Shown here: piece by piece, positions 8,377 to 63,035 of the stretch
Numbering within the stretch: the first letter of the stretch is position 1
Layout: each line of letters opens with the position of its first letter
Assembly (NCBI GenBank): GCA_947561395.2
Contig: OX387184.1
Span: 41,220,766-41,284,765 of the forward strand
Source: Buxus sempervirens
Lineage: Eukaryota; Streptophyta; Magnoliopsida; Buxales; Buxaceae
Reading direction: 5' to 3'
DNA length: 64,000 nucleotides
Notes under the pieces: model-generated
Seen by the model: the letters and a program-made list of their open reading frames with translations, nothing else
What the model was told of the DNA's origin: nothing
The model's database searches: none
Translations under genes and position numbers: made by a program

Positions 8377-11300
8377 TGTAACGCCCCGAATCCGGGTTAC
8401 GTGAAATAAACCGTAACTCGTTCCGAAGGAGTTAGCTTTTCACACAGGATCTCTATATCAGAGTAAGGAAAACATGAAATGGCAACAACATAATCAGAGT
8501 CAACTAAAATTTTCCCCAACTCACCTGAACCAAGAATATACCCGCCTGAATCGTCCTCTCTAAGATCTGAAAACAAAACAAAACAAAACAGTGAGATACG
8601 ACTATCTCAGCAAGTAGCAATGCATGCACGAAATATAGTTATAACAGTACTAAAACATGCACGATTAAGAATACACAACGATTAACCACGGTTAATCCGT
8701 CTAATGTCGGAAATACATCGTCAATCACATTCGGAAAACTTTATATATATTGGGACTCATGAAGTTTGCCTATTTTGTGTGGCTAAGCACTAGTGTTCCA
8801 AACAATCCAGTCGAAATACTGCAACAGCTCAAATGACCCAATTCATCGCCCTCATGGCGGAAAATACTCAAGTGACCTCACCCTCATGGTGGAAACGGAG
8901 TTGCTGCAGCACTTCCCTCATGGAAGGCCTCTCCATCATGGAGGAAACGCATGAAGGAACCCTAGACTTAATCCAAACAAAATGTTCAAAATTCACTTAC
9001 AACTCGATTGTGGATCCACACTAAGTCTTGCCCTTATGTAACTTTGGCAAATTAATAAATATAATTTGCAAATCAGCTTACAATCATGCTCAATATAATT
9101 TCAGTCACTTATATAATAAACCAGAACAATTTAGTTCAGATAGCCGCTAAAACCATTCAATAATAAAACATAACAGCAATTGGTATATACCGTGAGAACA
9201 CCTTACACTTTAACCATTCATGATAACCAGTATTAACTAAGATGCCAATTCAGAATTTCCATAGATATAGAAGAAACCAGAAATTCCAAAGAGAGTTTGG
9301 AATTCAGCCCAAAAGAACATTTGGTTAATCACTTTACTTCACTAAACTTACTTTTGATAACATCCCCTTCATATAGATTCTTACTCATAATTCCCTAACT
9401 TTTATTGTCTAAAATTTATCTCCATAAGTTAATAACATATCTAGAATTCTCTATTTAATCTCTAATTAACTTAGGTATAATTATAAAAGAAAGAATAAGC
9501 TTAGAATAATCTTCAAAATCTGCTGCAGAAAAATTACAGCATACATGCTTGCATTTAGATCACCATATCCTTCTAATCAAGTTCAATCACTTATTTCCCA
9601 TAGGGTTCTAATAATACTTGGTTGCTCTTTAAAGTTCAACTAACTTATTTGAGTAGGTTCAGCAATCTATACTCAAGATAAAATGCTGTAGAAAAATTCC
9701 TAGCACCAAAGACTATTGAGTTGAACTGGTGCTAACCTCTTGGAGGTTAGCACACCTTGACTTACACCAATGCTTTCCCCAATCACCCCTTCAGTAACAC
9801 CACCAACACTGAATCAAACCCCTGGAGTGGTCTTTTGAAACTTTGAAACATAATTTATAGGTTCAGCAAAATAGCCGCACAGAATCTTTGATTTTTTTAT
9901 CTGGTGCTAACCGGAACAAGCTGGTGCTAACCTGGTGAGGTTGGCACCAGGTCAATTTCCCTTAGCGCTAGTTAATTCTTGAGTCTGGTGCTAACCTCTT
10001 TGAGGTTAGCGCCCAATACCAATAGGTTGGCTCCAGGTCTTGTTTCAACTGGGTAAGTCTCCAAACTTGCGGCGAAGGCTTATTCTACCATACTTGACTA
10101 AAACAAACCTTAAGAACCTACCAACATAGCACATACACTCTTAATAACTCAATAATTCTCCTTCGAAAATAAACCAACCAGATTATACAATTATTAAACA
10201 TCAAACGCTCGAAAATGTAAACGGAAACAGGAATTTCTTTAAACACAAATCTACCTTTATATGATCTTAAAAACCACAAGATTCATTTTATTTTCAAAGG
10301 TGCTAACTTGCATAAAATACCATCTAACTGACCATCTTTAAACTACTGTAAAAGTATTCTAAGCAGTCTTATTAAAACAAAATATTAAACGCCAGAAACA
10401 GAACCTGGAAATGGTGTTTCGTTTAATCCAATTCTACCTTTCTATACGTTCATGAAACCCCATGAAATCAGGAAATTATAGAAGATGCTACCTGTTGTTC
10501 CATTCTCCAGATTTTTCGGCAGGTTCTAGTTCTTCTTTTTGGAACCAAATGCTTCCATTCTAAACATGTCTAACATGATTAACAAGTGATAATTTAAACA
10601 ACTAACATATCCAACCTCACCCAGATTTGGTCAAATCCATAAACCAACAGTACTCTTAGAATAGACGTTTAAAACATGAACAGAACCTGGGCACTTGTTA
10701 CATTCCAATCTAAGTTCTACATGGTCACAAACACAACGAAAAACATGATGTTTTGAAAGGCTACTTGCCTCTTGTTTTCGTCTTCACCAACACAGCAACT
10801 CCTTTGGATGATCCTCACGTCCATAATCTCCAACAGCCAATCTGAACTGGACGTTTTCTTGCTCCAACAGCAATGGACAACTTCCTCTTTCTTCTCCAAC
10901 AAAACTCTCCCCTCTTTCTCAATTCTCAGATTTGAATTTCATCCATTTGGCCTTCTCCCAAGTTAAACCGGTTAGAAACGCTTGGAGAGAGAGCTGTTGA
11001 GACGATCAACAACTTCAACTTCCTTACGTTACAAAACTTTTGATTTTCTCTTATGATCCTATGCAATGCTCCACCACCATATCTCCTACACCAACCACTC
11101 ATCGATACTTGATCAAAATAATGCCTTCTCAAACACAATATTACCCATACTATAACTCAATTCTAATAAAAAATTATCAACAATAATTATTTAAGCTAAA
11201 CTATATTCTTACATGAAATATACACAAATCAAGATTCCTGAAAATTCCCATATTGCCCTTAAATAGTTTCCACCCTAAACCAATAAATAAAAATCTAATT

Positions 11301-11457
11301 AATGTTTCTTATCTTTTAATTAGAACTTCCACCCGGATTCACCCGAGAATGCCGGTTCGACCGCTCAATCTCTCTTTCTAGTCTTTCCCATCAATTAAAT
11401 AAATTAGTATTTCCCTAAAACAAAATTTTAATATTATTAAAATTTCGGGATTTTACA
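8377..11457 (+). mobile_element. solo LTR, family A copy 1
   Basis: A 3.1-kb fossil that begins TGTAACGCCCCGAATCCGGG, ends CGGGATTTTACA and is flanked by TAACG on both sides. Only one copy of each end is present and no internal domains follow, so it reads as a solo LTR left by recombination. Ends and several internal words (for example GAGATACGAC...CAAGTAGC near 8593) are shared with copies A2, A3 and A4. Between about 9720 and 10040 it holds a block of inverted words around GGTGCTAACC and GGTTAGCACC. The superfamily cannot be decided without internal domains. Confidence 0.8.
9720..10040. repeat. near-palindromic word array in LTR A1
   Basis: CTGGTGCTAACCTC and its inverse GAGGTTAGC recur at least six times, several as short hairpins (CTAACCTCTTGGAGGTTAG, CTAACCTCTTTGAGGTTAG). 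Confidence 0.8.
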
Positions 11458-11580
11458 TAACGGTAGGGGGTGTAACAGACACTTTTCCAAACTACGGGGG
11501 TAGTAAGTGATCGCTTCTGAACCACAGGGGGTGTCCGTGACACTTTCCCAAACCTCAGGGGTGTTAGTGTAAATTTCCCA
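11458..11580. repeat. degenerate ~31-bp minisatellite
   Basis: Four loose units, each with a G-run and a short tail: GGTAGGGGGTGTAACAGACA, ACTACGGGGGTAGTAAG, ACCACAGGGGGTGTCCGTG and ACCTCAGGGGTGTTAGTG. The part left of LTR A1 (about 8325-8376) has the same look, so the LTR landed inside this array. Confidence 0.6.
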
Positions 11581-12071: not shown

Positions 12072-12172
12072 ATTTGAAGAAACAAACACATATGAAATGA
12101 CAAAAAAAACTTGTAAACAAGTGAAGTTAGAAATTTATATTTTTTGTTGACATTAATTACTAAAATTTATTG

Positions 12173-12480: not shown

Positions 12481-12662
12481 CTTCTCCATACGAAGCATGT
12501 AATGCTTAGTATTATTTACTTTTTTTAAATGTTTTATGTAGGGCCACTTGGAAAAACATTAGTTGTAAGATGCTCTCTAAACCATTTTAGAAAGAGAAAT
12601 GCAGGTGATTTTAACCCCTTGAAAACTTATTTCTTTTAGGAAAGCCCTTGAAAACGAGCGTT

Positions 12663-12782
12663 CATCCTCTACAGCGGGGGCTGTTTACAGCCCCTCACAT
12701 TCCGTGGGGGCCCCACCATTCATTTGGGGGGCCCCACACCATACATGTGAGGGGTTGTTTACAGCCCCTGCTGTAGACGATG
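12663..12782. mobile_element. 120-bp GC-rich hairpin MITE
   Basis: The left arm CATCCTCTACAGCGGGGGCT and the inverse of the right arm CATCGTCTACAGCAGGGGCT pair over about 55 bases, with a small loop around 12720. It sits between copies of CTTGAAAAC, which recurs at about 12620, 12647 and 12790. The target duplication is not clear. Confidence 0.6.
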
Positions 12783-13122
12783 CCCACTCCTTGAAAACTA
12801 ATACGTGATGCTTTGGTCTGGCTGGCGACTGGTCTTCCCGATATAGTCCGTCAAAATGCTGCAAGAAATTGACAGGACATTACACTGCCTTGGGTATCTC
12901 ATCACGAGTTACATAGTACTATTACAGTCATCTTAATATCGTCTTATGGCTCTTGGCATTCTTACCAAACCCTTTTTCGTATTTTCTGTACTAATGCTTT
13001 GATGGTGCCAAAGAAAACGTCACAAATACCGACTGATAAGGGCTGGCTTCGCCTTTTGGCCTCTCCTTCCTGCTTTTGTTTGAGAATATAGAAGAATCTC
13101 TCTCATTATTGCAAGGATATAT

Positions 13123-15935: not shown

Positions 15936-15959
15936 AAACCCTTTTTCCTGGTTTTTTTC

Positions 15960-18190: not shown

Positions 18191-21143
18191 TGTAACGCTC
18201 CGGATCCGGGTTACGTAATAAAACCGTAACTCGTTTCCAAAGGGTTAATTTTTCACACAGGATTGATATATCAGAATGAAGGAAAACATGAAATAAACAG
18301 ATACCATAAAATTAGAGTCAACTAAAACCCAACTCAATATTTTTTTACTATATCTCAGAGACTGAACTCATATAATCCAGGCATCTACCCTCCAATATCG
18401 TTATTTCCATGAGTAGTTGAAAAAAAAAAACAAAACAAAACGGAATGAGATACAAATATGCTAGTAAGTAGCACATGCATGCTCAAATACCTTTTCATAG
18501 TTAATTATAAAACATGAATCAATTATAAAACATACAGTAGTGATGATAACACTAATAATTCAAATAATCCAACAATAATCCGGCGATCAAATATGATACA
18601 AACCCATATATTCCATCATGTAAATCAAATCAATAGTTTCGATATCAATTCACGTGAATAACCATAAAACCAAGTATAACCATGTAACAACGTGTCGATG
18701 AAACCAATATTCCAAAAAATCCTAAATAGATATATCTCCGATCATAACAAGTGTCAACATAGACAAAATCCCCATCATAGTCAAGTCCACGCCTCTATTT
18801 GTATATCTGGCCTACTCAGGGTTTCAGATATTGAAATGACAGCCTACTCTAAGTTTCGTCATCCAATGCTGGCCTATTTCGGGTTTCGGCATTGACAACA
18901 CTGGACTACCATAGTGTTGGTGTTGCTCTACACTGGCGGTGGAGATATAAATACCAATAAACCACATACGGTAATAACCAAGTACCGTTAAACTAGCTGG
19001 CAAAACATCTTGTGTCAAATCAAGTCTCAACATAGGCCAATGTCTTGTAGTTCACTTTAATTAGATAATTAGCATGCCAGAACAACATCCACACCTCCAT
19101 GTACACAGTCCGATCTACTCATAGTCCCTGTACTCTGAAATAACGGCCGACTCAGGTTTTCATCACCCAATGCTGGCCTACTCCGGGTTTCGATATTGAC
19201 AATCCGGCCTACTCTGGGTTTCGGGTTGCTTTACACCAGTCGTGGCAACACTCATGGCCATGCAATTACATCAATAAAGTCAACACATCACATTACTAAG
19301 CTTAAGTAATGGATCCAAGGCAAGCTGGACCAAATAGCTTGAACCAAATCAGCAAGTGACCAAATAAGTTCAATCCAAAACCATGGGTCAATCATGACCA
19401 AACCCACTCCATCATGGAGGATCTCAAATATATGCTTTTCAAGGCGAATAACATTATCCAAACCATAATGTATATCAAATCATTCATGAAACAAAACCAA
19501 TAATCCAAATCTATAGAACTAACTCATAATAAAGCAAATCCCATGCAAATTCCAATCAAATCCGGTGTAATCCAAAGTGATTCAAAAGAAAGTTCAAAAC
19601 ACCGATTTCCCAAATATGTCCAGAAACATGTTCTTAGAGAATTATTTATTTCCAACTAGTTTAGATGTGAGAGTTATATAGGTAGAAATCCTTAGAATCC
19701 TTACAAGTTAAATTGGAAACATAATATCCTTTTAAAACCCCAAATGTACTAATTTATAGGAATAGGTGGACAAATATTTAATATGAACTCTTTATTATAA
19801 TTGACCTTCAAAGACACCTTAAGAATGATCTTAGAGAGATGTTACAAGTGATAGAATAAAAATAAATTTATTCTATAATAATTTGGAACCAAAAGTCTCT
19901 CAAGAACCTAGTTTAGTAGAATATGCACATACTCTTCATTGTATTGAATTTTAATATAATTCCTGTGCAAGCACTTTCTAAATATCTAAATCTTATTTGT
20001 AAATGGGTTGGATTTGATTAAAAACAATTCCATAGTTAGTCGCTCGAGCGTCTTGTTGGGCGCTCGACTTGTCTGGAAAGTTGAACTTTTGGGTTCTGAG
20101 ATTTTAAGAAAACACAAGCTGGGCGCCTGGGATCGCACTTGAGCCCCATTGCAGGCGCCAGGCCAAATTTCAGGTTGCAAACAGAAATGTGAAATTTCCG
20201 AGTTTTTTGGAAATTTGAACTACCAAAACCTAATTTAATTACTCTAAAACCATGTAAACATCTTCTAAATCATTAATAGAAACTTTCTAATAGATTCAAC
20301 AACAATTAATCATGAAATTTAAATCAGATCCATACATGTTCTTCAAGTAACTCAAAAACACCAAAATCTGAGTTTCAAACACTCAAATTCGAATTCAATG
20401 CAATAAATCCACGAAATCCAATAGGAATTGGTTTAGAAGGGTGCTACTTACCTCTATGAAGTTCGAAACAACTCAATATCGAAGTCCTTAGATCTCAGAA
20501 ACTTCAGATCTCACAATTCTCTACAGTTTCCCACTGTTTTCATCAAAACAATTCCAGATCTGCTTAAATCTATTTCAAATCCTAAAATTCTCTTACACTA
20601 GATCACGAATTGAAAGTTAGAAGCACTCTTCCCAGTAAGGACTCTGATCTGATCAAGATGTCTCACCAATATCAATTGAAATCAAATTTCCAACTTGAAT
20701 TCTCCCTCAATTTCTTCTTTAACAGCAATCGATCAAGAGGTCTTCTTCTCTCTTCTTCAGATTCGTTCCTCAGATCTCCTTCCAGTTGCTGTTTCCAGAT
20801 TATTCCAGCTCTAACCAACCAAACTAACTCTCTTCTCTTTTTATACCCAAGATCTTGCTGCCCAATTCTCTTTTAAACACCACTGATGTGCTGATTGACA
20901 CTCCACCAACCTTCTCTACCTATTCAAGACCAAATCCAAATTAAAATACTCGATTAAATATTACTTATTAGCATTATGGAGTTATAATAATTATTCACCT
21001 CATTTAAGTAATTCCTTCATTAAATTTCTGGAATTCACCTAAATATCCTCTGACTCCTCTTTCTTGAAATTTCCACCAATAATAATAATTAATATTATTA
21101 AAAAAATTCCAAATTTATTAATCCAAAAATTTGGGGTTTTACA
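18191..21143 (+). mobile_element. solo LTR, family A copy 2
   Basis: Starts TGTAACGCTCCGGATCCGGG and ends TTTGGGGTTTTACA, about 2.95 kb, in the same orientation as A1. Shared internal words include GAGATACAAATATGCTAGTA near 18447 and GGTGCTACTTACCTC near 20440. A TATA-like word (CTTTTTATACC) lies near 20836. The flanks (TTTGT and ATCGC) do not match, so the target duplication has been lost or the copy arose by recombination between elements. A near-palindromic block lies at about 20036-20165. Confidence 0.75.
20036..20165. repeat. near-palindromic word array in LTR A2
   Basis: GTCGCTCGAGCGTC, GGGCGCTCGACTTG, GGGCGCCTGGGATCGC and CAGGCGCCAGG recur within 130 bases. The position corresponds to the block in A1 but the words differ. 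Confidence 0.7.
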
Positions 21144-26660: not shown

Positions 26661-27722
26661 TATATGTAGCTCTATGTGTGTATTGATTTAGGGGTAGAGG
26701 ATTTGATGTGTATTTTGATTAGATATGTATTTTGATGTGTCTTTTATCTTCTATTCTTTTGCTTGATGCTGATACACTTGGATTATTTTTGTATACTGTG
26801 GATGTTATGGATGGTTAATGGGCACTTTGATATCGTAGACATTTGTATTTTGATATATGAAACTTGATTCATGGATCATATGGAATGTTTATCTTTGAGT
26901 TTCCAATACAGTTCCCCCCTGACTTGGACTATTGACAGGAGACAATATGAAAGTTGATACTTGTTTGTGGTATTACCACCATTGCTTCATAAATTATCTT
27001 GTACTTAACAATCCAGGTTTGAAGGTTGTCCGGGATTTCATTCATCTATGTAAGATATAGATGTCGATGTGTTGGGTTGTGCTCATGCTATTGTTCATTG
27101 TGTTACAAAATAGGGTAAACTTCACCAGCCCTTTCAGCATCTATTTTTGAATGCTATAATTGCAATGAATTTCACGGAAGCAAAATTAAATTTAAGGAAG
27201 TTTAAAGGAAGGCATTGGCTAATATAATCCTAAATGCCACTTTTCTTGGTGCACTCAAATACCTCACTTTTACTCAGCTCGATGTTAACTTTTCAACTAA
27301 TATTGCCAATCAATGCACAAGCCATAAGCACTCACATGACAGCTGGAAACTCTAGAGTTTTTGGATGATTAACGGTCTACAATGGGTGGGTCTATTTCTA
27401 TTGGACTATTTTAATATTCTGTTCTAGTATTGAAGCATTGTACACTTTTTTGTTGGCTGAAATAGCACAGATCTTGTTTTCTTCATTATCCTAAGTTGCT
27501 CTCTTTGTCGCCAATTGTGATAATGTCAATGCCACTTAATTAACAACCAAGACAATCTTTCATCCTTGTAGTTCTCTTTGTATGAATTACCTTCCCATGC
27601 ATGTTTTGTGGGCTTAATTCTATGCGAAAAGAGTCCTTAAATTGTTTAGAGTAGGTCATAGTGATTGTGTGTGGAAGGGCAATGCAAAGAGAATATAAAC
27701 ACACAATTTATAAAAGTCGCTA
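26661..27722. other. mostly unassigned; possible Copia remnant near 27.2 kb
   Basis: Between about 27200 and 27340 a frame reads LGALKYLTFTQLD, reminiscent of the GALQYLTLTRPD motif of Ty1/copia polyproteins. It is highly decayed with no bounding LTRs, and the assignment is weak. Confidence 0.25.
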
Positions 27723-27990
27723 GACACAGCTAGATTCAGGGCTCGAACTATGGAGGACAACCTGATCGCTTGAGCGGTCCATCAAGCTTTATCAAGCGGT
27801 ACACACTGTCGGATTTTTTCTGCATAACCCAAGACCAGAGCGAGACAGAACTAGATGCAGGGCTTGAGCTACGGAGGACAACCTGATCGCTTGAGTGGTC
27901 CATCAAGCTTTATCAAGCGGTACACACTGTTTGATTTTTTCTGCATAACCTAAGACCAGAGGTAGACAGAGCTAGATGCATGGCTCGAGC
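27723..27990. repeat. 121-bp tandem repeat, about 2.2 copies
   Basis: CTAGAT.CAGGGCT.GA recurs at 27730, 27851 and 27972, exactly 121 bases apart. The unit contains ATCGCTTGAGCGGTCCATCA and ATCAAGCGGTACACACTG, words like those in the LTR palindromic blocks, so it may be a piece of another LTR. Confidence 0.8.
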
Positions 27991-33427: not shown

Positions 33428-33641
33428 TGCTTGTGTGTCATTATAATATTGATTCATGTGCGTATGAGGAAATCGGATTTTGCTTCTCTTTTGTTCTCTT
33501 TCTTCACGCTCCTATATAAGTTGGGACTGTTTTTCTTTTTTGGGTGTAATGAGAACTTGTCTCTGTTATGAATTTCATATAGCACTTCTCTCATGTCTTT
33601 TTATTTAGTTAAGGGTCCATGGATTTTGAAAAATAGGGTTT

Positions 33642-34720
33642 TGAGTCTAACAACACCTAGAGGGGGGTGAATAGGTGTAGCACAGCAGAATAAAAATTTT
33701 CTATCAATTAAAGACAAGTCCTTAATTAATAGGCATGAACAAATCCTCAAGGTAATTCCAGAAAATCAAATAACTAATCGAAAGCAATTAACAAGCCACC
33801 CAAATTGCAAGCAAATAATTAAAGCATGTAAAGTAAGACAAAACAAGCAATTTGGTGGCGAAGGGAAAACTCTATGAGAACTCTCACTAGAGAAAAACCC
33901 TCCGGGCTATACAGGAGCCACCTAAAAGATCCAATATGAAAAGAAGACTTACAACCTGTAGTTCAGATGACTCAACATCCCTATGCTAGACTCTGCAACC
34001 CACAGACTTGAAAGTATCTGAGGAACTCCTCAGATTTGCTCCACAGCAACACTTCAGAACTCTAAAGATCTTCTCACACGATCACCCAAATGAAGTCGCC
34101 TGGTATCCGTAGGATCTCCCACGATCAATCTCCCCAACCCAGAACTCCAAGGTAGAGGAAGGAAGAAGAAAAGAAAGGTTTTATGGCTCAAAAGATGAAA
34201 ACCTAGAAGAAGGGTTTTCAGAAGAGAAAAGGATATTTAGGGCTTCTAAAACATAGCTCTCTTAGGTTTAGAAGGTCCCTAATCCTATTTAAAGGTTCCC
34301 CAAAAAGTTTGAAGTCAATCCGAATTGAAACGAGTAAGTTATGTAATTTTTCGTAACTTTTCGGAAATTTTTCTGTTTGAACGTTCGAACGCTCAGCAAA
34401 CGTTCAGCAAACATTGCCCTTTAAAACTTGAACGTTCGAACGGCCAGAGAACGTTGATCTCACACTAGTCTCGGGTTTGTCTGCAGAACATGAACGTTCG
34501 AACGGCCAGAGAACGTTGATCAAACGTTACTCTTCAGAAATTGAACGTTCGAATGACCAGAGAACGTTGATCAAACGTTGGGCATAACTTCTTCAATTTG
34601 ACTCCGATTTTGACGCCGTTTGAACCATGTCTTCTTGGACTCAAACTAAACATTCTAAACACACTGAAACACTTTCTTTTTGACACTGAATTAAGCCAAA
34701 CTAAAATATTAAACCTTACA
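33642..34720 (+). mobile_element. solo LTR, family B
   Basis: Starts TGAGTCTAACAACACCTAGA, carries the GGGGGGTGAATAGGTG phrase common in plant LTRs and ends TTAAACCTTACA. The flanks are GGTTT (33637-33641) and GATTT (34721-34725), a 5-bp duplication with one difference. One copy of each end and no internal domains indicate a solo LTR of 1.08 kb, inserted in the FAR1-type MULE after the oleosin copy. The palindromic block is at about 34378-34590. Confidence 0.6.
34378..34590. repeat. GAACGTTCGAACG palindromic array in LTR B
   Basis: GAACGTTCGAACG or a close variant occurs four times about 60 bases apart, each followed by CAGAGAACGTTGATC or CAGCAAACGTT. Confidence 0.85.
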
Positions 34721-40496: not shown

Positions 40497-41099
40497 TGTA
40501 AAACCCCGAATTTCCCTTAAATAATAAATTAAATTAGTAAATAATATTACCCAGAGTTATGATTGATAGAAACATTTTAATATTGTAGGGGGTGATCAAC
40601 TTAGCGGAGATCCAGAATTAGACGCAGATCTGACCGTCCGATCATGAGATATCAAGGTATGTATTCTGATTGGGCATGTGTATGGAATTTGGTATAGGTG
40701 AGACACATGGGATAAGTGAGTATAAGTATTAGTTTAATAACCTAATTTTATACGCGTGTATTTTCGCTCGTATTGATTAGCCGCAAGCGACAAGCGACCG
40801 AAGGAGAAGAAGAAGAAGGGGAAGAAGAAAAGCTTGGGTTTTTGGAGTTCTTCATCTTCCAGAGTGTTGCTGGGTGATAAAGAAGCGTGGTTGAGAGAAG
40901 TGAGGAAGAGGAACCTTCGTTCAAGAGGTAGGTGACACCGTTTTGGTTTTAAATTCGGATTTATCTCTGTTTAATCGCAAACGCATGTTTATATGATATG
41001 TAAAGTTGTATTTAGTTAGTTAAGCATGTTATAAATACATTAGAATGAGTTTAGACGAGAAAAATCGTGATTTAGAACTGTTTCTGTTCGATTTGGTGA

Positions 41100-41270
41100 G
41101 ACCGCCGACCTCGACTGTGCGAGGCGCTCATCGGCGATCTTAGGCGCTGGTTAAATATTTGAGGACACCGTGGACCGCGGGACGATGGACCGTGGGCGCT
41201 CGAAATTGCACTACCGCCGACTGATGACCGTCCGGAGCGATCCTGAGCGATCCCAGGCGCTCTCAGCAGA
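41100..41270. repeat. GC-rich near-palindromic word array in LTR A4
   Basis: Words such as GAGGCGCTCATCGGCGATC, TTAGGCGCTGG, GACGATGGACCGTGGGCGCTC and GAGCGATCCCAGGCGCTCT repeat within 170 bases in an otherwise AT-rich LTR. Confidence 0.7.
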
Positions 41271-42705
41271 ATTTCCAATTTTTCATAATTTCGAACCTAA
41301 TTCAATTCTAAACTATTTTTAGACAATTTTAATGATTAATTAAGGTGCTTTAAGACCAAAATAAACTACCTAAATCCCTGTTTTACAGAAAAACAAATTA
41401 GGGAGATATTTAGGACATTAGTTGCCAAGTTTTGAAGGTAAACGAGAAATGTGATTTTGGAAAAGCCTAACTACCATTTGACTATCTAAACACTTTTAAA
41501 TGGCATTATAAATCATAAGACATTATAAAGAGAGTTCATAATCCGAATGACTGAATAATGAAGTGAATGTACAGATATAACCATTATATGCCGCTAGGCA
41601 CCAACCCTTATAGAAATATGATACTTTAGGGAATTTTGGAGTCTAGTGGGCATAGCTGGTTATGGATCCATAGTCGTAGCTAGATAGCTGAGGGATATGT
41701 CATTTGGGTTGAGTTACTCCTATATGCGACGCGCTTCCTTTGCAATTTAGTTTGTCTGGGAAGGTCCTATGTCTGGAGAGACACCCCTGTGAGCCGCTGG
41801 TGATTTCCTATACATGTGGATAAGCAACCACCTCCATGTATTGATTCTGGTGCTGCATGCTGGTGGTACATACCAACTTTGATGGGTACGTGTGCAATAA
41901 GTCGGTGACTACGGCTCTTGTCTAAGCTGCACTGCATGGGGCTTGAGTATCATTAGTAGCATCGCTCCTAAGTCGCACGGTGGTATAGCAATTGGTTGAG
42001 AATCATCTCAAAAGGTTTATCTAACTTTGTGAGTCCTACAATGACACTGAAAACATAACACTTGATATGATTACTATTGTGCACGTGCGGGATGCATGTG
42101 ATTGGGATATTGGTTGGATGTGACTGCTTAGTACATCCTGGCAATGCATGGATTATGCTATTGATTTGTCTATTGAGATCTTATATTAAAACTTGCTGAA
42201 AATCATCTCTAGAACTATTTATCAAACTGTTTTGTGTTCATGAATAGTATAAATGATTATGCGAGCCTGATTTATCGATGTTGCTTTATCGTGCATGAAC
42301 TGTTACTTTCCGTATATTAACTGTTTAATCATGCATGTGTTACCTACTGAGATATTCGTATCTCACCCTACTTCTATTCCATTTTTTTCAGCTGATACGC
42401 GAGAGGGGGATCTTTTAGACTTCCAGGGAGAGATAGCCGAGTATTCGCCGGAGGATTATTATTATCCAGATCTTATCTGAGGTGGATTGATGTTATAGAC
42501 TTAGCATTTTTAATTGGTTTATTATCACTGAATTGGATTTGATGTATGAGAGAGACAAGAGAGAGTTAGTAACCAGTTCATTCTACCAGACTTTGATACT
42601 ATTGATTGATGGTCAAGCTTCATGCTTGTTTGATGATTTTAATCTACACTTCCGCACATACTTGTTTCCGCAACTCTGATACACTACAAAAAAGCGGAGC
42701 TTTAG

Positions 42706-43345
42706 CGGCGGGTTTTTAGCGGCGGTAGGCATTTACCGCCGCTAAAAGACCATAATTTCATTTAACCGGCGGAAGACAGTGTTCCGCCGTCGAAACAAGT
42801 ATTTAGCGGTGGTCATTTTCTACCGCCGCTAAAAGGGAATGGCGCCAAACCCATTTTCGCGCTAAGGTTTGGCGCGTGTTGTTACCGGCGGTAGTACCGC
42901 CGGTAATAACAACAATTACCGCGAAAATGGGTTTTTTCGCGGCGGTAATTAGTTACCGCCGCAGAAAGGCCATATGTTCTTTGCACGGGATGGGTTTTGA
43001 GCGGCGGTTACTAATTACCGCCACTGAAAGGCCATATGTCCTTTGCACGGAATGGGTTTTGAGCGGCGGTAACTAATTACCGCCGCGGAAAGCCCATATG
43101 ACCTTTCCGATGAATGGGTTTTTAGCGGCGGTAATTATATACCGCCGCTAAACGGCCATATGACACCGCGAGGAATTGGATTTTAGCGGCGGTAATTAGT
43201 TACCGCCGCTAAAAAGCCAAATGTGATCGCGCGACATGTGCTTTTAGCGGCGGTAATTATATACCGCCGCTAAAAGCCAATTGTGATCGCGCGAAATGTG
43301 CTTTTAGCGGCGGTAACTAATTACCGCCGCTAAAAGGCTATAAAT
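42706..43345. repeat. 5' subterminal hairpin array of CACTA2
   Basis: TTAGCGGCGGTAATTA followed by TACCGCCGCTAAA recurs about ten times, as tight inverted pairs spaced by AT-rich linkers. Confidence 0.9.
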
Positions 43346-43394
43346 CCCCAAATCGCGCGATTGGGGTTTTCTTCTCTGCGCGAAAAATCTCTGT

Positions 43395-43520
43395 TCGATC
43401 TCCCGGGGATTGCATCGCCTGCCGCCGGTCGCCGTTCGCCTGCCGCCGGTCGCCGTTCGCCTGCCGCCGTTCGCCTGCCGCCTTTCGCCTGCCACCGTTC
43501 GCCTGCCACCGGTCGCCCTA
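43395..43520 (+). repeat. GC-rich ~20-bp tandem repeat in CACTA2 leader
   Basis: CGCCTGCCGCCGGTCGCCGT is repeated with variants. It lies in what looks like a 5' untranslated exon ending at CTCA followed by GTGAGT near 43605. Confidence 0.75.
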
Positions 43521-44839
43521 CGCCGTTCGTTTGCTCGCCGGCGTCACCAAAAATCAGCTCGGTTCGTTCCCTCGGCTGCCACCAGTCGCTCGCCGCCGTT
43601 CGTTCTCAGTGAGTGAGCTATCAAATTTTCTGTTTTAGGATATGCCCTCAACGCCACATCCATGAGTGAGCAATAATCATCAAACCCTTAGTTCATTAAG
43701 CTTTATGCTAAAATTCGTGGGTAGCTTGCAAATAGTTTTGTCTTAAAAAAATTTTCATGCAAGTTTACAGAGACAACCCTCTATTTTTAAAAACTTTCAA
43801 TCCATAGAAGCACTACTGGCATGAGAACATTTTTCTTAATCGGCTTGAGAACATTTTTTTTTATTATTTAATACTAACGTTAACGTTTTGGTTAACGTTG
43901 CTGTTGGCTGGTGAACCCACGAGGATACATGGCGCAAGATGCGCATAGGTCTTAGAGATGGTCTGAGGAATTGGTTATCCTCTCAAAGTCTTCTTTCCAT
44001 TGATAACATCTTTGGTCGGTTGTTCCTTTATAAAAACTAGCAAACATCCTGTGGGAATGGGTAAGAAGTAATACATATCATTATATAAATAACTGTAATA
44101 TAAGGGAAATATGCTTTATTGAAATAATTTTGATGATTTTATTCTTTTTCTTAAATAACATCAATTTCTTTATTGAGTTTTCAATGATCCTTTTTCTTTT
44201 TTTTTCTAATTTTCAAAATTGAAAGTTGGTTCAAACTATGTGTTGTAAAACTCAAAAGATCAACTCCTCTAAAAATCCAAATTAAGTTTACAGGTTAGTA
44301 AAGTTGGTGTTAATAATAACCCAGAAAAATAAAAAAAGAACAAAAAAAAACAACAACAACATACATCATCATTATTTCAATATTTAAACAGGTAAGGTTG
44401 TCTACTCATTTTGATAGCACATCTATGGTGTGGAATAAATTAGAGGGACTCATGGCATCCATTTCAACAGCCACACCACTAGCTCCATCCATTTCTTGTA
44501 ATAGTTTCTGCAATGAGCTCCAAACCGTTGATAAATTTGTCGGAACTGCAATGAGCTCCAAACCATTTCTTGCCTCTTTCATCTGGAAGAGATTGGCTAT
44601 TGATTGCTCCTGTGATGCAGAATAGCAAAAAAGAAGCTCTTTCCTTCCTTATGGAAAGAGCTTCTTTATGTATGATACAAAAAGAAACCACATTATCATA
44701 TTAGCAAAAAGAAACTTTAAAATAAAATAAAATTCTAATTCTTTTTTGCCAGCTAGTCATTAGGATCTCAATTACTAGGTTTTGTCAAGTGTATCAATAA
44801 CCATTAGATGTGGTGGATATGGATGTGGATGCTTTTTTT

Positions 44840-45884
44840 GGATTGTATATGAATGCAATATTTCGACGAATCTTTTCTTTACAGGTTAAACCATTATTAT
44901 TTTAGACCAATTTGGTCTGGACAATCCTCTATTTTTAGGGGAGATGCTGCCGAAATTTTTAGGGAAGATAAATAATGGTTAAACTATTATTTATCTCTTT
45001 AAATTCCTTGTTGTGATATTTTTGTTCTAATGCTGTTCTAGTGTGATTGGGTTTATGATTAGCAGTTCTTTATTCTATTTTTTGGTTAACCTGGTTATTG
45101 TTTTTATATTTATTTATCTCATAAAAAAAGTGGGAACAATTCAAATACCCGTCTGAGAGGTTACATGTGTAACTAGGCCCATCATGTTTTGTGTACTTTG
45201 AAGATATTGCATCTTCGCAGTAAGTTTGCAATAATTCTTAGTATTTAAATATGAAGGCATAGATTTGCACATGTAACATCTTGGATTGTCATATTGACAG
45301 TTTGGATTGTCATACGAAACAAATGCTGAACGTATAAATCATCGCCCACCAGATGTGGTAGAGGATCAATGGGCAATTATAGTAGAGTACTGGAACTCAC
45401 AAAATGCCCAGGTAATTTGTTAATTAGTTAATATGTCTCATAAAGCTACTGCATCCTTGTTTATTGACTTTGTATGATTATATTTTGCAGAACTTGTCAG
45501 CAAGGAATAAAACTAATCGTGCCAACCAGACCCTTAATCATACAGCTGGGACAAAGAGCTTTGCCAGGGTCAGAAACGAACAGGTATAACAAATGGCCAT
45601 TTATGAATGTCTTGATATACTATTATAAATCTAGTCACCTCATCAACTTGATGATCGGTTTTCATAGTGTACGATCTTATTTTATTGCTTTCTTATCTCT
45701 TCTAAGTTGTATAGTAGCTTTTCAATTTTCTTGTATGATAAGATGTGATATTTATGTGAATGTGGATTGTATATGAATGCTACGTTTTGCATTCTTTTTT
45801 GTTTTTCAGGTTGAATGGCTTTATTTTAGACCAATTTGGTCTAGACAACCCTCTATTTTTAGGGGAGATGCCGTCGAAATTTTT
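44840..45884 (+). repeat. 121-bp direct duplication within CACTA2 gene
   Basis: Copies at 44840-44960 and 45763-45884 share TGGATTGTATATGAATGC, an AG-GTT acceptor-like junction, TTTTAGACCAATTTGGTCT and CTATTTTTAGGGGAGATGC. The second is still open across the junction (VEWLYFRPIWSRQPSIFRGD). The first is not. Confidence 0.75.
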
Positions 45885-46699
45885 ATTATTTTTTCTTTAT
45901 TTATCTCTACATGTGTTCTTTGTTTTTATTGCATCTTCATCTTTTTAATCTGGTCAATTGTATTAATTTCTGCTTGTGGATGTTTAAATGATTTATGATC
46001 AATTAACACCATATTTTTTCATTAGGGATTGGCGGGCCGTGCTGAGACTTTTATAAAAACGCATACTCGAAAAGATGGCACGCCAATCAATGATAAAGCA
46101 GCCGACAAGATAGTAAGTTATTTCCTCTTATTGTAGGTATACTTGTAGCATACGAATAACTTTATTAGCATCTATTTTGATAACTCAATGATTGCATAAA
46201 TATTTTTTTCAGGATCAAATGCGAACTATCATAGAACAAGGCACGCCAGATTCGACAGCCCGAGATGATGTATATACTCAAGTCATGGGGCATGACACAC
46301 ATGGTAGGGTGCGGTGTTGTGGGTTAGGCCACACGCCCACTAGGCTGTGGGGTGGTAGTGCATCCTCGAGTACGTCATCTCGGTATGTCGATATGGATGA
46401 ATTTAATAGGATGCGAGAACAATTACAACGTATAGAGGAGCGGCTAGAAGAAGAGATGCGACAACGACAAACAATTGAAGCAATTGTTGCACAGCATACC
46501 AGAGAATTTGAAGAATTTAGAAACTTTATGATGAGTAAACGTCAAATACAGGTATTATATAAATACCTTACAAAAATACGTATAGCACAAATTCATATCA
46601 TCTTTATATTTAAATACCACACTTAATGATCTTTCTTACAATTTATAGTCTCCTGGCGAAACTTCTGCAAATGATAGTCCTCCTCGGGATTTTAGCTAG
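45301..46699 (+). CDS. Transposase_24-type CACTA protein (five exons)
   Basis: Plant Ptta/En-Spm second-protein family, whose members accompany CACTA elements and are thought to bind the element ends. Exons 45301-45411, 45491-45583, 46026-46112, 46213-46551 and 46649-46699 are all phase 0, about 226 residues. Motifs: RPPDVVEDQWAIIVEYWNS; NRANQTLNHTAGTKSFARVR; GRAETFIKTHTRKDGTPIND; a region before DVYTQVMGHDTHGRVRCCGL; then a long acidic-basic coiled coil (MREQLQRIEERLEEEMRQRQ and onward) and a short tail ending SPPRDFS. No lesion is seen in these exons. The N-terminal exon or exons were not identified. A 5' untranslated exon and the duplicated segment upstream suggest rearrangement there. Confidence 0.8.
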
Positions 46700-47109
46700 A
46701 CAGACATGCATTCTTATTATTTGAGGTGAGTAACACAAGATAGCTTCGGTTCTATATATATATATATATATATATTAATTTTTTTTGGCTAAATTGATTT
46801 GTCTACTTATAATTTTACTGACGCATGATTCATTGTTATTTTCATGCAGGGCTATTAAATTGATACCAGTTGCAATTTCACTTGTTAACGGAAACCATTA
46901 ATTTACTGTTCTTTAGTTTAATTTATATGACATGAATGTTCAGAGTATTTTAATTTTATTAGAATTTCTTTTAATTCATTTTCTTTTTTGTAATTGTTTT
47001 GTTCTATTTGTTATACAATTTGCTACGAAATGAGATGTTTTACAGGTATTTTACAGGATTTTACAGGATTTTCGATACACCTAATTATAGTTTTTGTATA
47101 TGCAGGTAA

Positions 47110-47535
47110 TGGCTTTTAGCGGCGGTAATTACCGCCGCTTAAAACCACAGTCGCTTTCCCTATCCAAATTATTAGCGGCGGTACCTACCGCCGCTAAAGG
47201 AATATAAAAAGCACGTGAGTATATTAGCGGCGGTAAATACCGCCCCTAATGGAAGGTATTACCGGCGGTATATGTTACCGCCGTTAAACATTTCATATTA
47301 AGCGGCGGTAATACCCGCCGGTAAAAAGGCAATTTAACGGCGGTAATTACCGCCGTTAAACTCCCGCCGCCTATTAATCCGAAATAGCGGCGGTAATATT
47401 GCTACCGCCGTTGCTACCGTCGCTGATTCGTTTAGCGGCTCGATATTCAGCGGCGGGAGGATTTACCGCCGTTAAAGTTTTAACGGCGGTAATTTGACCT
47501 TTACCGGCGGGAAGCTACCGCCGGTAAAAATCGAC
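47110..47535. repeat. 3' subterminal hairpin array of CACTA2
   Basis: TTAGCGGCGGTAATTACCGC-type inverted pairs, at least eight, mirror the 5' array. Confidence 0.9.
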
Positions 47536-47725
47536 TTTTTTGTAGTGATAGTTTAATATATGGATTGGATTTACTTTCTTTGGTCTGGTATGTTATTGAT
47601 GTTGTAATTGATATGGGCCAGTAACACCTCGGATTTGGTTGTTGAACTAAATTCGGGTTGTTACAGTAGCGAACCGAATTCGGGTCGGGTGCCGGTTTGC
47701 ACTGACCCGGGTTCGGGGCGTTACA

Positions 47726-57506: not shown

Positions 57507-58464
57507 GGCATTGTGAGACATGGAAAAATCAATTCAATGACTTCCTAATCGTCACAGGGGATTGGTTAAAAACAAAGAGTCACCACCATTCTGTTTAGGT
57601 GTGAATGGACACCAAAATCTCAAATAAGCACAAAAAGACAAATTTAGGGTAAAAATAACCCTATTAGAAAAACAACCAGAGATGGGTAAGGGGATTAGGT
57701 TATGAACAGGGGAAGGTGTTAGGCACCCCTATTCATCCACACAAGGTGGTTGCTAGGTATTGTTCATGTTTTTCAAAGAAAAAAAGGGCTTGCTAATTAA
57801 AACAAAAGTAAAAGAAAAACAAAAGAATGTATGGCTTTTTCCCATGTGAATGATCCAATTAATTATGGATCCTTCTTGTGAAAACAAGAGCCATTTTCTT
57901 GGGTTTCACGATTGACTGAAATCAAAATAAAGAAAACAAATCTAAAGTGAAAACTTAAAAAATCTGGCTTCTAGTTAAATTTTGGAAATCTAAAAAAAAT
58001 ATGATTTTTATAAAATATTGTAGAATTGAACTTGAATAGTCCAGGACATAGATACAGCCCATATTTCACATTAGATCAAGAAATCAAAACCAAAAATACC
58101 CATGTTGATGAAGAACATCAAAAGGGGAGAACTTAGACCGTAGGGTCTTCTCTCAAAACTAAAAAACAACTCAAAAACCATCTCATGAAACCCTAGAAAT
58201 TACTTTCAGGCTTCTGATTCCAGATCTATCACATAGATCATGATAGATCCAGGATCTTAGCCTAATATCACAAAAATCACGAAAACAATGCTGTAGGTGC
58301 AAAGATGTGAAAATTCCAAATTTTTGAAAAAAGTGGGGATCTTATGCTATAAACGTCATGGATTCATATGATTCATTCAGATTCAACCCAAAATCATTAA
58401 AACATTAGCAGGATATCCAAAACAGCCACATCTCACAGATTAGAGCACATGGGGTCTACCTTAC

Positions 58465-58728
58465 GGATCCACCTGTTCTCTTTTCCCCTAGCTCTCTCTT
58501 CACGTTTTACGGCTAGAGAGGATTCTTGAGGTACTTGGAGGCAGGTTTGGGTATACAAGCACAATCAAAGGCCTTATTCTATAAAAAGAGAAAAACAGAT
58601 TATAGGGTTCTATTCTAGGGATCCACCTGTTCTCTTTTCCCCTAGCTCTCTCTTCACGTTTTACGACTAGAGAGGATTCTTGAGGTACTTGGAGACAGGT
58701 TTGGGAATACAAGTACAAGATGGCCTTA
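58465..58728 (+). repeat. 152-bp tandem duplication in LTR C
   Basis: GGATCCACCTGTTCTCTTTT and the following sequence through GAGGTACTTGGAG.CAGGTTT recur 152 bases apart. Confidence 0.85.
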
Positions 58729-59107
58729 TTCTACAGCAATGGAGAAGATCCTATTATCTCTAGAATTGAAGACAGAAAATAAAAGGGAAAAGGGACTTAC
58801 TTGGATTGAGCAAGCAGAGCAGCAGGGATTCCTCTTTTCACTTGGAGTTCTTCAGACTTCAAATTAATGGCCTTTTGCTTGAGGAGAGGCCCTCTATTTA
58901 TAGGCAAACCCAGGGGTATGGTTGGTCCAGAGGGATATACCATGATCCTCAAGATTTGATTGAAAATAAGGATAATGCCCATCTATGGCCAATCAAAGAT
59001 AAATAGGAGATTTCGATGGATAAATAAGAGAATTCAAATCTCTCAGAGAGATATTGGATGAAGATAAGGCTCAGAAATCGAGCAAAGATAAAATTCGCAC
59101 AAAAACA

Positions 59108-59215
59108 TTGCGCCCGTATATGCATTGCGGGCAAGTGGTGCCTGCATTCTTAATACGGGCGCAGCATGCCTGTATACAATTTTTGGGCGCGACCAGCCCG
59201 CAAATACAATATGGG
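59108..59215. repeat. near-palindromic word array in LTR C
   Basis: TTGCGCCCGTATATGCATTG, GCGGGCAAG, TACGGGCGCAGCATGCCTGT, GGGCGCGACCAGCCCGC and ATGGGCACTGC recur within 110 bases. Confidence 0.7.
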
Positions 59216-59493
59216 CACTGCTTAAATGATTAAATTTTATGCATTTTTGTCCTGTTTCAAATCCCAATTACATGTTTCAATTATTTTCTCATTTTGTAGT
59301 GCAATTTGGGATGTCTACAGGCATTTGGTGGGCATTTTGGATGAGATGTTAATTGAGGATTCCGTGAATCTACACAACTCAATTTGACAGTTTACACATT
59401 CTTAAGACCAAGAAATAATCTTAGAAGAATCACCCAGCGCAACAAAAAAACAATAACTCCTTACATTTTCACGAGAAAATAAAGTATGTATAC

Positions 59494-60208
59494 CTTCTCC
59501 TTTCAAACTCTAGCAAAACTTCAAGTGACAGCTATGTGTGCCAGCATCTGCTCGGCACAGTTGTTACGATTTCATTCCGACAAGTGTTGATACTTAAAAA
59601 ATATATTAACTGAGGATTTACAAATCTGCTACATGCTAAAAACGTACAATAGCATTTAGAAGAAATATATTTACCCGAGCTTCTTCAAAATTCCAGTGGT
59701 ATACAAGTACATTCCATTGTGCTTCAACCATTGACGGAGGACTATTTTTGAATCTTTCCTCATTGGTTTTATACGGATCTTAATACTTTCACTTCAACTC
59801 TGATTTGTAGTCTTTCCACTTTTTATTTATATACTGGAAGACAAAGCCCCTCGGTCTATCATCCACATCAAATTTACCTTGCATAAAAATGCACAAAATA
59901 ACAACAACCTTCAACACCAAACAAATAAATAAACAATAGTGAATAAATAAAACACTTTTACAATAGGTTGGAAACATTTTAGCCATACAAATGAGAAAGC
60001 ATGTAGTTTGTCATCATAATTTACCTTTTTCCATGATTTGTGGGTTAGTGGTATTAAAGAGCTATCTTGAGCCAATATACTGCAACATCGATATGGAATT
60101 TTTGCTCAAGTGGTGGCCAATGCACATCCACGCATCTGGTGGGACCCCTAGTCCTCCTCCTAGATGATGAGGAGGCCTCACCCACTTGCGTCGATTCATT
60201 TATCACAC
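59494..60208 (-). pseudogene. Transposase_24-type gene of CACTA3, damaged
   Basis: Same family as the gene in CACTA2. Exons (right to left): about 60044-60208 with RRRTRGPTRCVDV and, in a second frame, QDSSLIPLTHKSWKK; about 59676-59878 with GKFDVDDRPRGFVFQYINKK, WKDYKSELK and VEAQWNVLVYHWNFEEA; and about 59494-59595 with NRNNCAEQMLAHIAVT and SFARV, which has at least two in-frame stops. The frame change in the first exon and the stops in the third make it a pseudogene. Further exons would lie beyond LTR C. Confidence 0.7.
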
Positions 60209-60408
60209 CTGTATGCAGTTATGATCAAGGTACATTGTAAACAAATATTCCGTGCATCCATCATGCATAATATTTAAACTAACAAAGGTAAAGAGAGATA
60301 CTAATGTTCACCCTCGGAGAATCTCAATTTAATACAAAAAAATAAATAAATAAAAAGGAATTTGAAACTTTATACAAAGCATGTTAGTTTAACTTTATAC
60401 AATCCATA

Positions 60409-60592
60409 TCAATAATCATCTTCAACATCATCTGATTCATCTTCGTTTGAAACATCGTTAGTGGGAGGAATTTGTTTCTCCAACATTTTAGGAGCATCAA
60501 CTGTTATTGCAGGTACATCTGCTCTTGCCCAGCTTGCACCATCATCATCATCTCCACAACCCGTTAACTGCTATGGACTATATGGTTCACAT
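60409..60592 (-). pseudogene. TnpD C-terminal exon of CACTA3
   Basis: Reads GCGDDDDGASWARADVPAIT, then VDAPKMLEKQ and an acidic end DESDDVEDDY with a stop at 60409-60411. The WAR.D.P.I.VD.P motif and acidic tail are typical of En/Spm TnpD C-termini. LTR A3 interrupts the coding region on its right side. The preceding part is at 63036-63272. The gene order TnpD then Transposase_24 on one strand is usual for CACTA elements. Confidence 0.65.
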
Positions 60593-63035
60593 TGTAACGC
60601 CCCGGATCCAGGTTTATTTAAAAACATAAACCCAAATCTGGTTTGTAAGGGAAAATGGCCCAAACAACTAATCCAGACTTAAACAATTTCATTTATTATA
60701 TCTGAGTGCGGAAATAAAGACATCTTTCAAGAAGCGCGGAATTAAACCACCAAAATAATCCATTAAAGTTTCATCTATAAAGTCTGGAAAGGTTTCAACT
60801 AAATAAAATAGGTAAAATCCACCAAAGGGGTGTAATTAAGATACCAATAATCCTTTAAATAACATCAAAATCCTCAAATAAAATAACTAAAGTCAATCCC
60901 TCAAAATAAACTAATCATCTCTCAATGTCCTCATGGACCTAAACAGGAATAAAATAGTCTTCTTCGTGGTAATCACAGTAATCCCCCGGAATCTCTACCG
61001 CAGCAACATCCTCTCTAGGAATATCTGTAAACAAAACCGATAAAACAATAATGTGAGAAACAACATCTCAGTAAGTAGTCATGCAAATAGTTGACCACAA
61101 TAAAATATGCCATGCTTAATCAAGATAATCACAATAAGATACAAAACAACAATGAAATACAATTGTCCATTTCATGGGACTCACGAAATAGAATGCCAGA
61201 GAAAGAGAGTAGACATGTGTAAATATGCTACTTAACCGAATTACGATGGACCAACCACCCTGCAGTCTGACTATTCAACGCCAACGGAAGAACCCAACCA
61301 TGAGTTAGCATGTACAGCCCAACTTATCCAGGAGTGGGTAACGTAGTGACCGACCTATCTAGGAGCGGTACCACCCTCGAGATGATGGAATGCCTATGAC
61401 ATAGAATTCCAACCCCTCTAATAAACATTTCACTTACTAGCTATTCTATGGATCCATATAATCGCTAAACCCATTCAACAGTAAGAAAACAACCCAAGGA
61501 ATGGACATACTTCTCAATAACACCCACAAATACAGAACCTCATCTATATAACCAAATCCTCCCTGCGGAAATAATAAGTCAAACACCTGCCTTGTCACAA
61601 CTGTGACCCAGAAACCAAAACAGAATGCACCAAGTCATATGTCCAAAACTCCAGGTTTCAACGGGCAAATATGTCCTGAATGTGTATCGACTCCATCGAT
61701 GCACAAAATACCTTCATATCACCCAAACACAAGTGTATGAACTTACAAAATCAACTTTGGTTTAAAACAGAATCATTCGGAACAACGGTATCAAGTAAAA
61801 GTGTCACTTTGGTAAAATCTACCCAAAATCTTTATAAAATTGAATTTCAAACATCCACCAGTGCAAACAATCCCCAAATACCTTAAACTTGATGGTACAT
61901 AGGTTAAAATTGGATAAAAACAATTCCGTAGTGAAAAACTAGGCTAAAAGGCCAATTTCCAAAAATCTGATAGACAAGGTGCTCGAACAGCCTTATACAA
62001 TAGGTCGTTTCAGGGTTAGTCGCTCGATAGATTGCTCAAGCGACTGTTCGGGTGACAATTCAATCTGGAAAATTGCTCTCGGGTTTTGAAAAATACGAAG
62101 GGCGCTTGAGCGACTACTCAGGCGGCCGGTACGTAGAAAATCCGAAAATTTGCGAACTTCAATAAAAATTCCAAAACTCAATATCCAATGCATCAAATCC
62201 ATTCTAAATCATTCTAAAACACTTTATAAACATGTTATAACAATTTCCAACAATTAAAACATCATAAATCACGCAAACAACTCATCAAACCACCGAATAA
62301 CCATGCATATCGAATAAACACGAATTACTTTTTGTGCAAGTTTAAAGGGACTACTTACCTGTTTTTGGGAACTAAAACCTCTCCTAAAAGCTCTAAGATA
62401 TCACCACAAATATGCTCCAACAAATCTCAGAAAGCCTTGATCTCGTCTGGTTCAAAAATCACTCTTTTAGAACTCTTAAACATACTTAAACTCACAAAAC
62501 AGAAACTGATTTTTATCTTATCTCTTACCTGGGTTTCTGAACGAAAAATCCTCTCTTTTCCTTCTAAAAGATTTGCTCCAAAGGTTGTTTAAGGTTAGGT
62601 TAAATCTCTGGGAAGTGAAGGAAGAATATGGGAGAATAGAGGAAGTTGGCGGCTGTTCTATTGGACTTGGACGTGAACAGCTGATGGGTTTTTAGGTTTA
62701 TTTTATTTATTTCTCCCCTTTTACACAAATGCCCCCACTTCATTTAAATTAGCTCAAACCAGCCCAAATCAAACCATTCATGACCCAATTTAATCCCCAA
62801 TTTCAGGTCAACCCACTCTCTTTGGGTTTGACCAACTCCTTTGTTGTTTAAATTTTTTAATAGCTCTTTACTATAACAAATCTGAATATTTATTGTTAAA
62901 CTTCTCCTTAGTTTAAACTAAAATTCTCACCTTAAATTAGCTTTCCAAGTTCTCCTCCGGGTTGAACCTATATCTCATCTCCTGCATATTATTAACTCAA
63001 TTAGTTTATTTAATACTAAAATCTGGGATTTTACA
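60593..63035 (+). mobile_element. solo LTR, family A copy 3
   Basis: Starts TGTAACGCCCCGGATCCAGG and ends AATCTGGGATTTTACA, 2.44 kb, in the same orientation as A1 and A2. It shares the word CATCTCAGTAAGTAG near 61064. The immediate flanks (CACAT, TTCCC) do not match, so no target duplication is claimed. The palindromic block lies at about 62015-62130. It lies within the TnpD gene of CACTA3. Confidence 0.7.
62015..62130. repeat. near-palindromic word array in LTR A3
   Basis: AGTCGCTCGATAGATTGCTC, AAGCGACTGTTCGGGTGAC and GGGCGCTTGAGCGACTACTC, then AGGCGGCC, recur within 115 bases. Confidence 0.7.

Follow-up and report, generated by a model that had tools for sequence, protein, structure and literature searches.

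We examined 64,000 nucleotides of the Buxus sempervirens genome (NCBI GenBank assembly GCA_947561395.2, contig OX387184.1, positions 41,220,766 to 41,284,765 of the forward strand), here referred to as the window, which contain six long terminal repeats (LTRs) from three retrotransposon families, denoted A1 to A4, B and C. Each of them holds one block of repeated short words (Table 1), and the original prediction was that all six were solo LTRs in which this block is palindromic, fast-evolving and functional. The bounds of the LTRs were set from matches across the 676.5-Mb genome plus the LTR end sequences, and the sense of A1 was read from a word like a primer binding site (PBS), TGGTATCAG, that adjoins the LTR in one relative (L004). 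All six LTRs proved to be real, and a GC-rich patch was found in each of them about where it had been predicted. Since 5-bp target site duplications (TSDs) match in A1, A4, B and C, these four of the six LTRs were identified as bounded solo LTRs; at the ends of A2 and A3 a TSD was looked for and not found.

Table 1. Positions in the window of the LTRs, their word blocks, TATA-like words and predicted leader introns (TSD, target site duplication; a hyphen after GAG or CAG marks the predicted donor boundary)
Feature	Positions	Sense strand	Remarks
A1 solo LTR, 3081 bp	8377..11457	minus	TSD TAACG
A1 word block	9720..10040	minus	GGTGCTAACC / GGTTAGCACC; sense offset 1418-1738
A1 predicted leader intron	8567..10768	minus	GAG-GCAAGTAGC ... 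TTTTCAG; donor sense offset 690; encloses block
A2 LTR, 2953 bp	18191..21143	minus	TSD not found
A2 word block	20036..20165	minus	GCTCGAGC, GGCGCC types; sense offset 979-1108
A2 predicted leader intron	18417..20451	minus	GAG-GTAAGTAGC; donor sense offset 693; window acceptor CAA, not CAG
B solo LTR, 1094 bp, Sirevirus-like	33627..34720	minus	TSD GATTT
B palindrome array	34378..34590	minus	four CGTTCGAACGTTC-type cores, ~51-bp unit; sense offset 131-343
B TATA-like TTTAAATA	34286..34293	minus	85 bp downstream of block; word match only
A4 solo LTR, 2360 bp without insert	40497..47725	plus	TSD CCTGT; split by CACTA element
A4 CpG-/GC-rich word block	41100..41270	plus	sense offset 604-774
A4 predicted leader intron	40928..42391	plus	GAG-GTAGGTGAC ... 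TTTTTTTCAG; donor sense offset 432
C solo LTR, 1808 bp, Ty3/gypsy OTA (Ogre-like)	57512..59319	minus	TSD GGCAT
C array	59108..59215	minus	GCGCCCGTAT / ATACGGGCGC plus GCGGGC / GCCCGC arms; sense offset 105-212
C TATA-like TATAAA	58897..58902	minus	~206 bp downstream of block; word match only
A3 LTR, 2443 bp	60593..63035	minus	TSD not found
A3 word block	62015..62130	minus	sense offset 906-1021
A3 predicted leader intron	61025..62358	minus	CAG-GTAAGTAGT ... TTTACAG; donor sense offset 678

Structure and words of the blocks

The blocks had been chosen by eye for such words before they were compared with dinucleotide shuffles, of which 500 were made for words and repeats and 200 for fold energy. 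A fold energy as low as the observed one was reached by 0/200 shuffles of A1, A3 and C, 2/200 of B, 11/200 of A2 and 103/200 of A4, and the observed number of repeated 8-mers by 0/500 in A1 and B, 4/500 in A3, 11/500 in A4 and C and 50/500 in A2. Short inverted repeats were equalled or exceeded in 0/500 shuffles of A1, 1/500 of B, 19/500 of A2 and 114/500 of A3; none were observed in the A4 and C blocks, a value that 500/500 shuffles reach. Perfect 8-base palindromes were in excess only in B (10; 0/500 shuffles), the other five blocks having 0 or 1. With composition controlled, A1, A3, B and C are structured, A2 is marginal and A4 shows word repetition only, without structure. The prediction was thus too strong in claiming such a block for every LTR, a structured one being recovered in four of them.

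When the whole LTRs were scanned in 120-bp windows (A4 only up to 42681), the block contained the most CpG-rich window in 5/6 LTRs (A1 ranked 10) and that of lowest fold energy in 5/6 (B ranked 4). For composition-corrected structure it ranked first in A1, A3 and C (nearly tied in C), second in B, 14 of 95 in A2 and 21 of 69 in A4. The CpG observed/expected ratio (o/e) of the block exceeded that of the remainder of the LTR in 5/6, with A1 as the exception. Copies were fetched from the genome for A1, A2, A3, B and C, A4 being represented by the window copy. Counting the window copies, fold z was below -2 in 8/8 copies of A1, 3/11 of A2, 12/13 of A3, 21/30 of B and 27/30 of C, vs, in the 64-kb stretch itself, 5/75 LTR windows off the blocks and 12.6% of the 310 that lie beyond these LTRs, where the windows were 160 bp, on the plus strand and of lengths unmatched to the copies, and the copies are relatives and not independent events.

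The words had been described as different between the A LTRs. Their forms do differ, but they are less unrelated than earlier thought, since a GGCGCT/AGCGCC/GGCGCC core is common to family A, with 9 sites in the four blocks vs 0 in the remaining LTR sequence examined (A4 to 42683), a core that was picked post hoc from words already seen. When its deaminated forms were counted (GG[CT]GCT or AGC[GA]CC), the contrast was weaker, with 11 block sites vs 6 elsewhere. The word GCGATCCCAGGCGC was found in both the A2 and A4 blocks, and GGTGCTAACC of A1 looks like a deaminated GGCGCTAACC. Across the genome, the word GACGCTCGAGCGCC, seen in copies of the A2 family, occurs exactly at 49 sites vs 0 for its reversed control; this count was not used as functional evidence, because it reflects a repeated word only, with at least 2 sites inside A2 copies. 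The B core includes GAACGTTC, which we take to resemble part of a heat-shock element, and no identity of a host factor is claimed from it.

Variation among genomic copies

In the copies read of A1, A2, A3, B and C, the block occupies a fixed position between alignable flanks, as had been predicted. Whether it evolves fast depends on the family. At non-CpG columns, pairwise divergence of the B block was 3.1x that of the rest of the LTR (0.022), with 0/17 same-size stretches as high, and that of the C block was 1.5x (1/75 stretches as high), but the A3 block diverged no faster than the rest of its LTR (0.82x). The value for A1 (0.31x) is biased, as the block itself served as query when its copies were retrieved. 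In A3, B and C, 22% of block columns are CpG columns, vs 2–5% elsewhere, and such columns diverge fast. CpG decay as the only cause of block variability was rejected for B and C, where the excess remains at non-CpG columns; it may lie behind much of the change in the A3 block.

Within B and C the words themselves are not replaced by turnover, contrary to what had been proposed; they are kept, and the spacer sequence changes. Non-CpG divergence of cores and linkers, respectively, was 0.005 and 0.077 in B, 0.105 and 0.171 in C, and 0.104 and 0.141 in A3, the last not being clear. Rotating the core mask gave as low a difference in 1/223 rotations for B, 3/125 for C and 19/126 for A3. With CpG columns included, the values were 0.039/0.078 in B, 0.149/0.178 in C and 0.159/0.150 in A3. 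The B cores are also steadier than the rest of the B LTR (0.005 vs 0.022 at non-CpG columns).

Repeat number changes as well. A module of 53–62 bases is present in 6/10 A2-family copies, while the remaining 4 and the copy in the window are without it, with GCTCGAGC kept in 9/10, and in B the units exchange between two types, as read from the alignment. The window copy of A2 lacks 46–52 bases at the block edge (20036-20037) that are present in 10/10 fetched copies, apparently a private loss. Matches of the A2 family break at this edge, 23 of the 85 listed pieces ending at query 1937-1938; we dropped these breaks as a sign of hypervariability, given that the window copy is itself the one without these bases.

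Element identity and placement of the blocks

The A4 family was examined through L069, an interior piece adjoining a 99% identical LTR, in which reverse transcriptase (RT), RNase H and integrase follow each other in Ty3 order. Further on, L069 has a chromodomain-like stretch (PF00385 at 2.7e-4; 21.2 bits, below the curated cut-off of 25.1) and then, as judged by eye, a stop codon followed by a purine-rich tract and the LTR. This layout is that of a Tekay-type chromovirus, and the family of A4 is taken as a putative one. A1–A3 are tied to A4 by common LTR ends (TGTAAAA ... GCGTTACA, in minus-strand sense), by local LTR similarity and by one tRNA-Met-like PBS word (L004). Judged from this relative of A4, family A would in outline be Ty3/gypsy of the Tekay type.

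In family B, 7/14 loci have a tRNA-Met-type PBS word (TTGGTATC-type, some altered) 2 bases past the LTR, and L017 carries a copia-type gag (PF14223 at 2.7e-23). The 3′ linker is present in 6/14 loci examined, and 6/6 of these have 4–5 copies of the octamer AGGGGGAG, the polypurine tract (PPT). In 5/6 of them (L016, L026, L031, L032 and L033, not L020) the terminal octamer stands 10 bp before the 3′ LTR (1491 vs 1501), and in these 5 loci the attachment site is TT/TG, not the AT/TG of Sireviruses. As its LTR pairs are about 4.4–4.5 kb apart and the interior is only about 3.3–3.4 kb, B is probably non-autonomous; pol was not found in the two flank open reading frames (ORFs) scanned with Pfam. 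We therefore call B Sirevirus-like, from its sequence features, and do not file it as a member of Sirevirus.

In family C, 7/30 loci have a word like a PBS that is not of the tRNA-Met type, TGGCGACTCTGCTGGGGAC or a close variant of it, and there is a gag-like piece with a weak match to PF03732 (0.01, below cut-off). In L082, at 1036-1800, an ORF with a plant mobile domain (PF10536 at 2.2e-14) runs antisense to the neighbouring C LTR of L041, and such a domain is given for 57% of Ogre elements in the part of PMC6317226 we draw on. Hence C is called a putative Ty3/gypsy OTA element, Ogre-like.

The B and C blocks lie upstream of TATA-like words, and all four A blocks (4/4) lie inside a predicted leader intron, with a donor-like site before the block and a polypyrimidine-AG after it, save that the window copy of A2 has CAA there (Table 1). 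Over their first 1000 bases, A1 and A2 have just two 12-mers that match at 11/12 or better at like offsets; the two overlap and fall at the donor. The acceptor region is alignable among A1, A2 and A4, and its CAG is retained in 6/6 A1 rows with letters. The donor GT of A3 is kept in 11/13 rows, 10 with the full AGGTAAGT; at the A1 donor, 7/8 rows have letters (L005 is blank), with GAGGCAAGTAG in 5 and GAGGTATGTG in two relatives whose flanks mismatch, making the alignment there uncertain. In the stretches examined, the antisense strand held no donor-like site. By chance, a donor-like match upstream of the block occurs in 9–24% of shuffles per LTR, and thus the case for a leader intron is made by joint presence and conservation and by no single site. 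An inverted repeat, GAGATA-n-TATCTC, was also seen just before the predicted acceptor in A1 (8593-8608) and A4 (42349-42364), with a related form in A3.

Possible function of the blocks and other repeats in the window

A functional module is the best reading of the blocks, and this part of the original prediction was partly supported: it agrees with their fixed place, with the faster divergence in B and C and with the changing modules of A2, but not with the rate in A3, the kept words of B and C or the lack of palindrome excess in A4. More specifically, the likeliest account, to which we give about an even chance, is that the blocks are enhancer-like cis-regulatory arrays of repeated dyad sites in the control region of the LTR. 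Each block is short, rich in GC and in most cases in CpG, and made up of repeated words that mostly have dyad symmetry. A dimeric host DNA-binding protein would bind the repeated sites, and transcription of the element would be driven or made inducible. In B and C the array would act upstream of the TATA-like word (85 and ~206 bp), and in family A as an intronic enhancer within the predicted leader intron. Unit number and linkers would shift by slippage and exchange between repeats with the B and C cores held, and perhaps RNA hairpins and CpG density attract small RNAs and methylation as a by-product.

What speaks for such enhancer-like arrays is the core conservation in B and C, the fixed place and module changes in A2, the CpG-richest window in 5/6 LTRs, the TATA-like words and a layout resembling that of Sirevirus RM boxes. 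Several observations weigh against it. TATA-like words are frequent by chance, and the A blocks follow a predicted donor instead of preceding a recognised promoter. Once composition is corrected for, palindromes are not in excess in A4 and only marginally so in A2. The A1 block is CpG-poor (o/e 0.25 vs 0.68 in the rest of the LTR). The A3 cores are not clearly steadier than the linkers and, with CpG columns, are slightly more variable, and the cores in general were selected after the sequences had been seen.

The main rival, which we hold to be unlikely, is selection for RNA structure, with the blocks forming hairpins in genomic RNA for dimerisation, packaging, polyadenylation or strand transfer. 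A retroviral packaging signal marks unspliced genomic RNA, and in family A a block in the predicted intron would likewise mark it. Most A1, A3, B and C copies have a fold energy that is low relative to their shuffles, which fits such selection, as do the donor-like sites before the block in 4/4 A LTRs with none antisense, the A1/A2 match at the donor and the alignable acceptor region, although donor-like matches are not rare in shuffles and the B and C blocks lie in U3, so that only the 3′ end of the RNA would contain them. Compensatory cells numbered 10 in C, where 200 shuffles averaged 3.2 and did not exceed 9, but there was no such excess in B (0; mean 1.0), A3 (2; mean 1.1, maximum 4) or A1 (2; mean 1.0, maximum 3). 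Moreover, the fold was derived from the same alignments, the cells count relatives and not events, and the antisense C fold showed no excess (4 vs a mean of 5.8). Within-family covariation was thus rejected as proof of RNA structure, the excess being slight and confined to C. Neutral repeat turnover, in which slippage and template switching of RT would leave GC-rich spots with short repeats, both direct and inverted, that have no function, is likewise unlikely in our judgement. It would account for the varying module number of A2, the exchange of units in B and the lack of palindrome excess in A4, but not for cores conserved relative to linkers in B and C, for the presence of such blocks in three lineages of elements, each time at a single place in the LTR, or for the published parallel in Sireviruses.

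We consider it fairly improbable that the blocks are targets of host recognition, where hairpins and CpG would feed small RNAs and methylation, the linkers would change to escape, and the palindromes would bring no benefit to the element. Comparable regions of maize Sireviruses are described, in the parts of the papers used here, as highly variable, fast evolving and hotspots of small-RNA mapping (PMC5311732, PMC10760457), and the raised CpG o/e of the blocks in all LTRs except A1 agrees with this. Host recognition leaves unexplained, however, why, at non-CpG columns, the B cores vary less than the B LTR does elsewhere, and PMC10760457, in the same parts, suspects a cost of losing the structure. 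That the blocks are CpG-rich remnants varying by CpG decay alone is highly improbable: their density of fast-diverging CpG columns favours it in A3, B and C, but it is mostly refuted for B and C by the faster divergence at non-CpG columns.

As for known systems, the passages of PMC2829016 (Bousios et al. 2010) on which we draw describe Sirevirus RM boxes as palindromic, repeated, forming a CpG island and lying upstream of TATA, suggest sites for stress factors in them, and call them Sirevirus-specific among the copia elements compared. The B block is like an RM box in its palindromic repeated word, its CpG richness and its place in the upper LTR half upstream of TATA, and element B shares with Sireviruses the PPT octamer and several PPT copies, a hallmark in the same passages. 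Each Sirevirus element there has its own word, and so do the blocks here. On the other hand, RM boxes have a CGG-CCG core (except in Tnd-1) and at least 8 copies (PMC2829016), whereas the B block of the window counts 4 full cores and lacks CGG-CCG. The region described in maize in 2016 is, as cited in the parts of PMC10760457 and PMC5311732 used, highly variable and hairpin-capable like ours, which is known here from sequence alone; for maize Ty3 elements, an obvious peak was not seen according to the same part of PMC10760457. Unlike the copia elements with RM boxes, A and C are Ty3/gypsy, and the A block lies in a predicted leader intron.

The kind of array known from Sireviruses is thus extended to a pair of Ty3 lineages within a single genome, with a predicted intron as a further setting. 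Among the open-access matches listed, Sirevirus papers aside, we recognised no palindrome arrays in Ty3 LTRs and no intron in a chromovirus LTR, which is no proof of absence. If true, the arrays in two Ty3/gypsy lineages and the conserved cores in 2/3 lineages would suggest a general plant LTR solution for transcription control, and the predicted Tekay-type leader intron would offer a testable reason for the deep placement of some blocks in the LTR.

A more far-reaching proposal, which we rate as improbable, is that a Tekay-type leader intron within the LTR holds the array, so that only unspliced genomic RNA would carry the dimerisation or packaging mark and translation would be split from replication RNA; the arrays of Sirevirus-like and Ogre-like elements would then be convergent, and the array a general plant LTR module. 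The predicted family A case resembles BARE, an LTR element of plants that keeps its spliced RNA apart from the RNA it packages, but the BARE intron is 104 nt, near the gag end and outside the LTR, and BARE is a copia element whereas A is a putative chromovirus (PMC3735527, in part). In the portions consulted of a 2025 review, plant LTR elements are said to be generally without introns, with Ogre and EVADE as exceptions (PMC12786077), and an LTR-located intron is not described in the portions used of the literature on the sunflower, LORE1 and BARE elements or of a review.

The windows with the strongest structure in the 64 kb fall outside the LTR blocks, several of them in the repeats of a CACTA-type DNA transposon. 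This transposon, at 42682-47547, is inserted in the A4 LTR with a 3-base duplication (ATA), and some of the strongest palindromes in the window are formed by its 62-bp repeats (TTTTAGCGGCGG...), which span 42926-43342. The lowest fold z among the 160-bp windows (-12) was found at 12641-12800, also outside the LTRs. At 27719-27990, a 121-bp tandem of 2.2 copies has ggctcgagc-like and cgcttgagcg words resembling those of family A; it belongs to another repeat family and is not counted here as an LTR.

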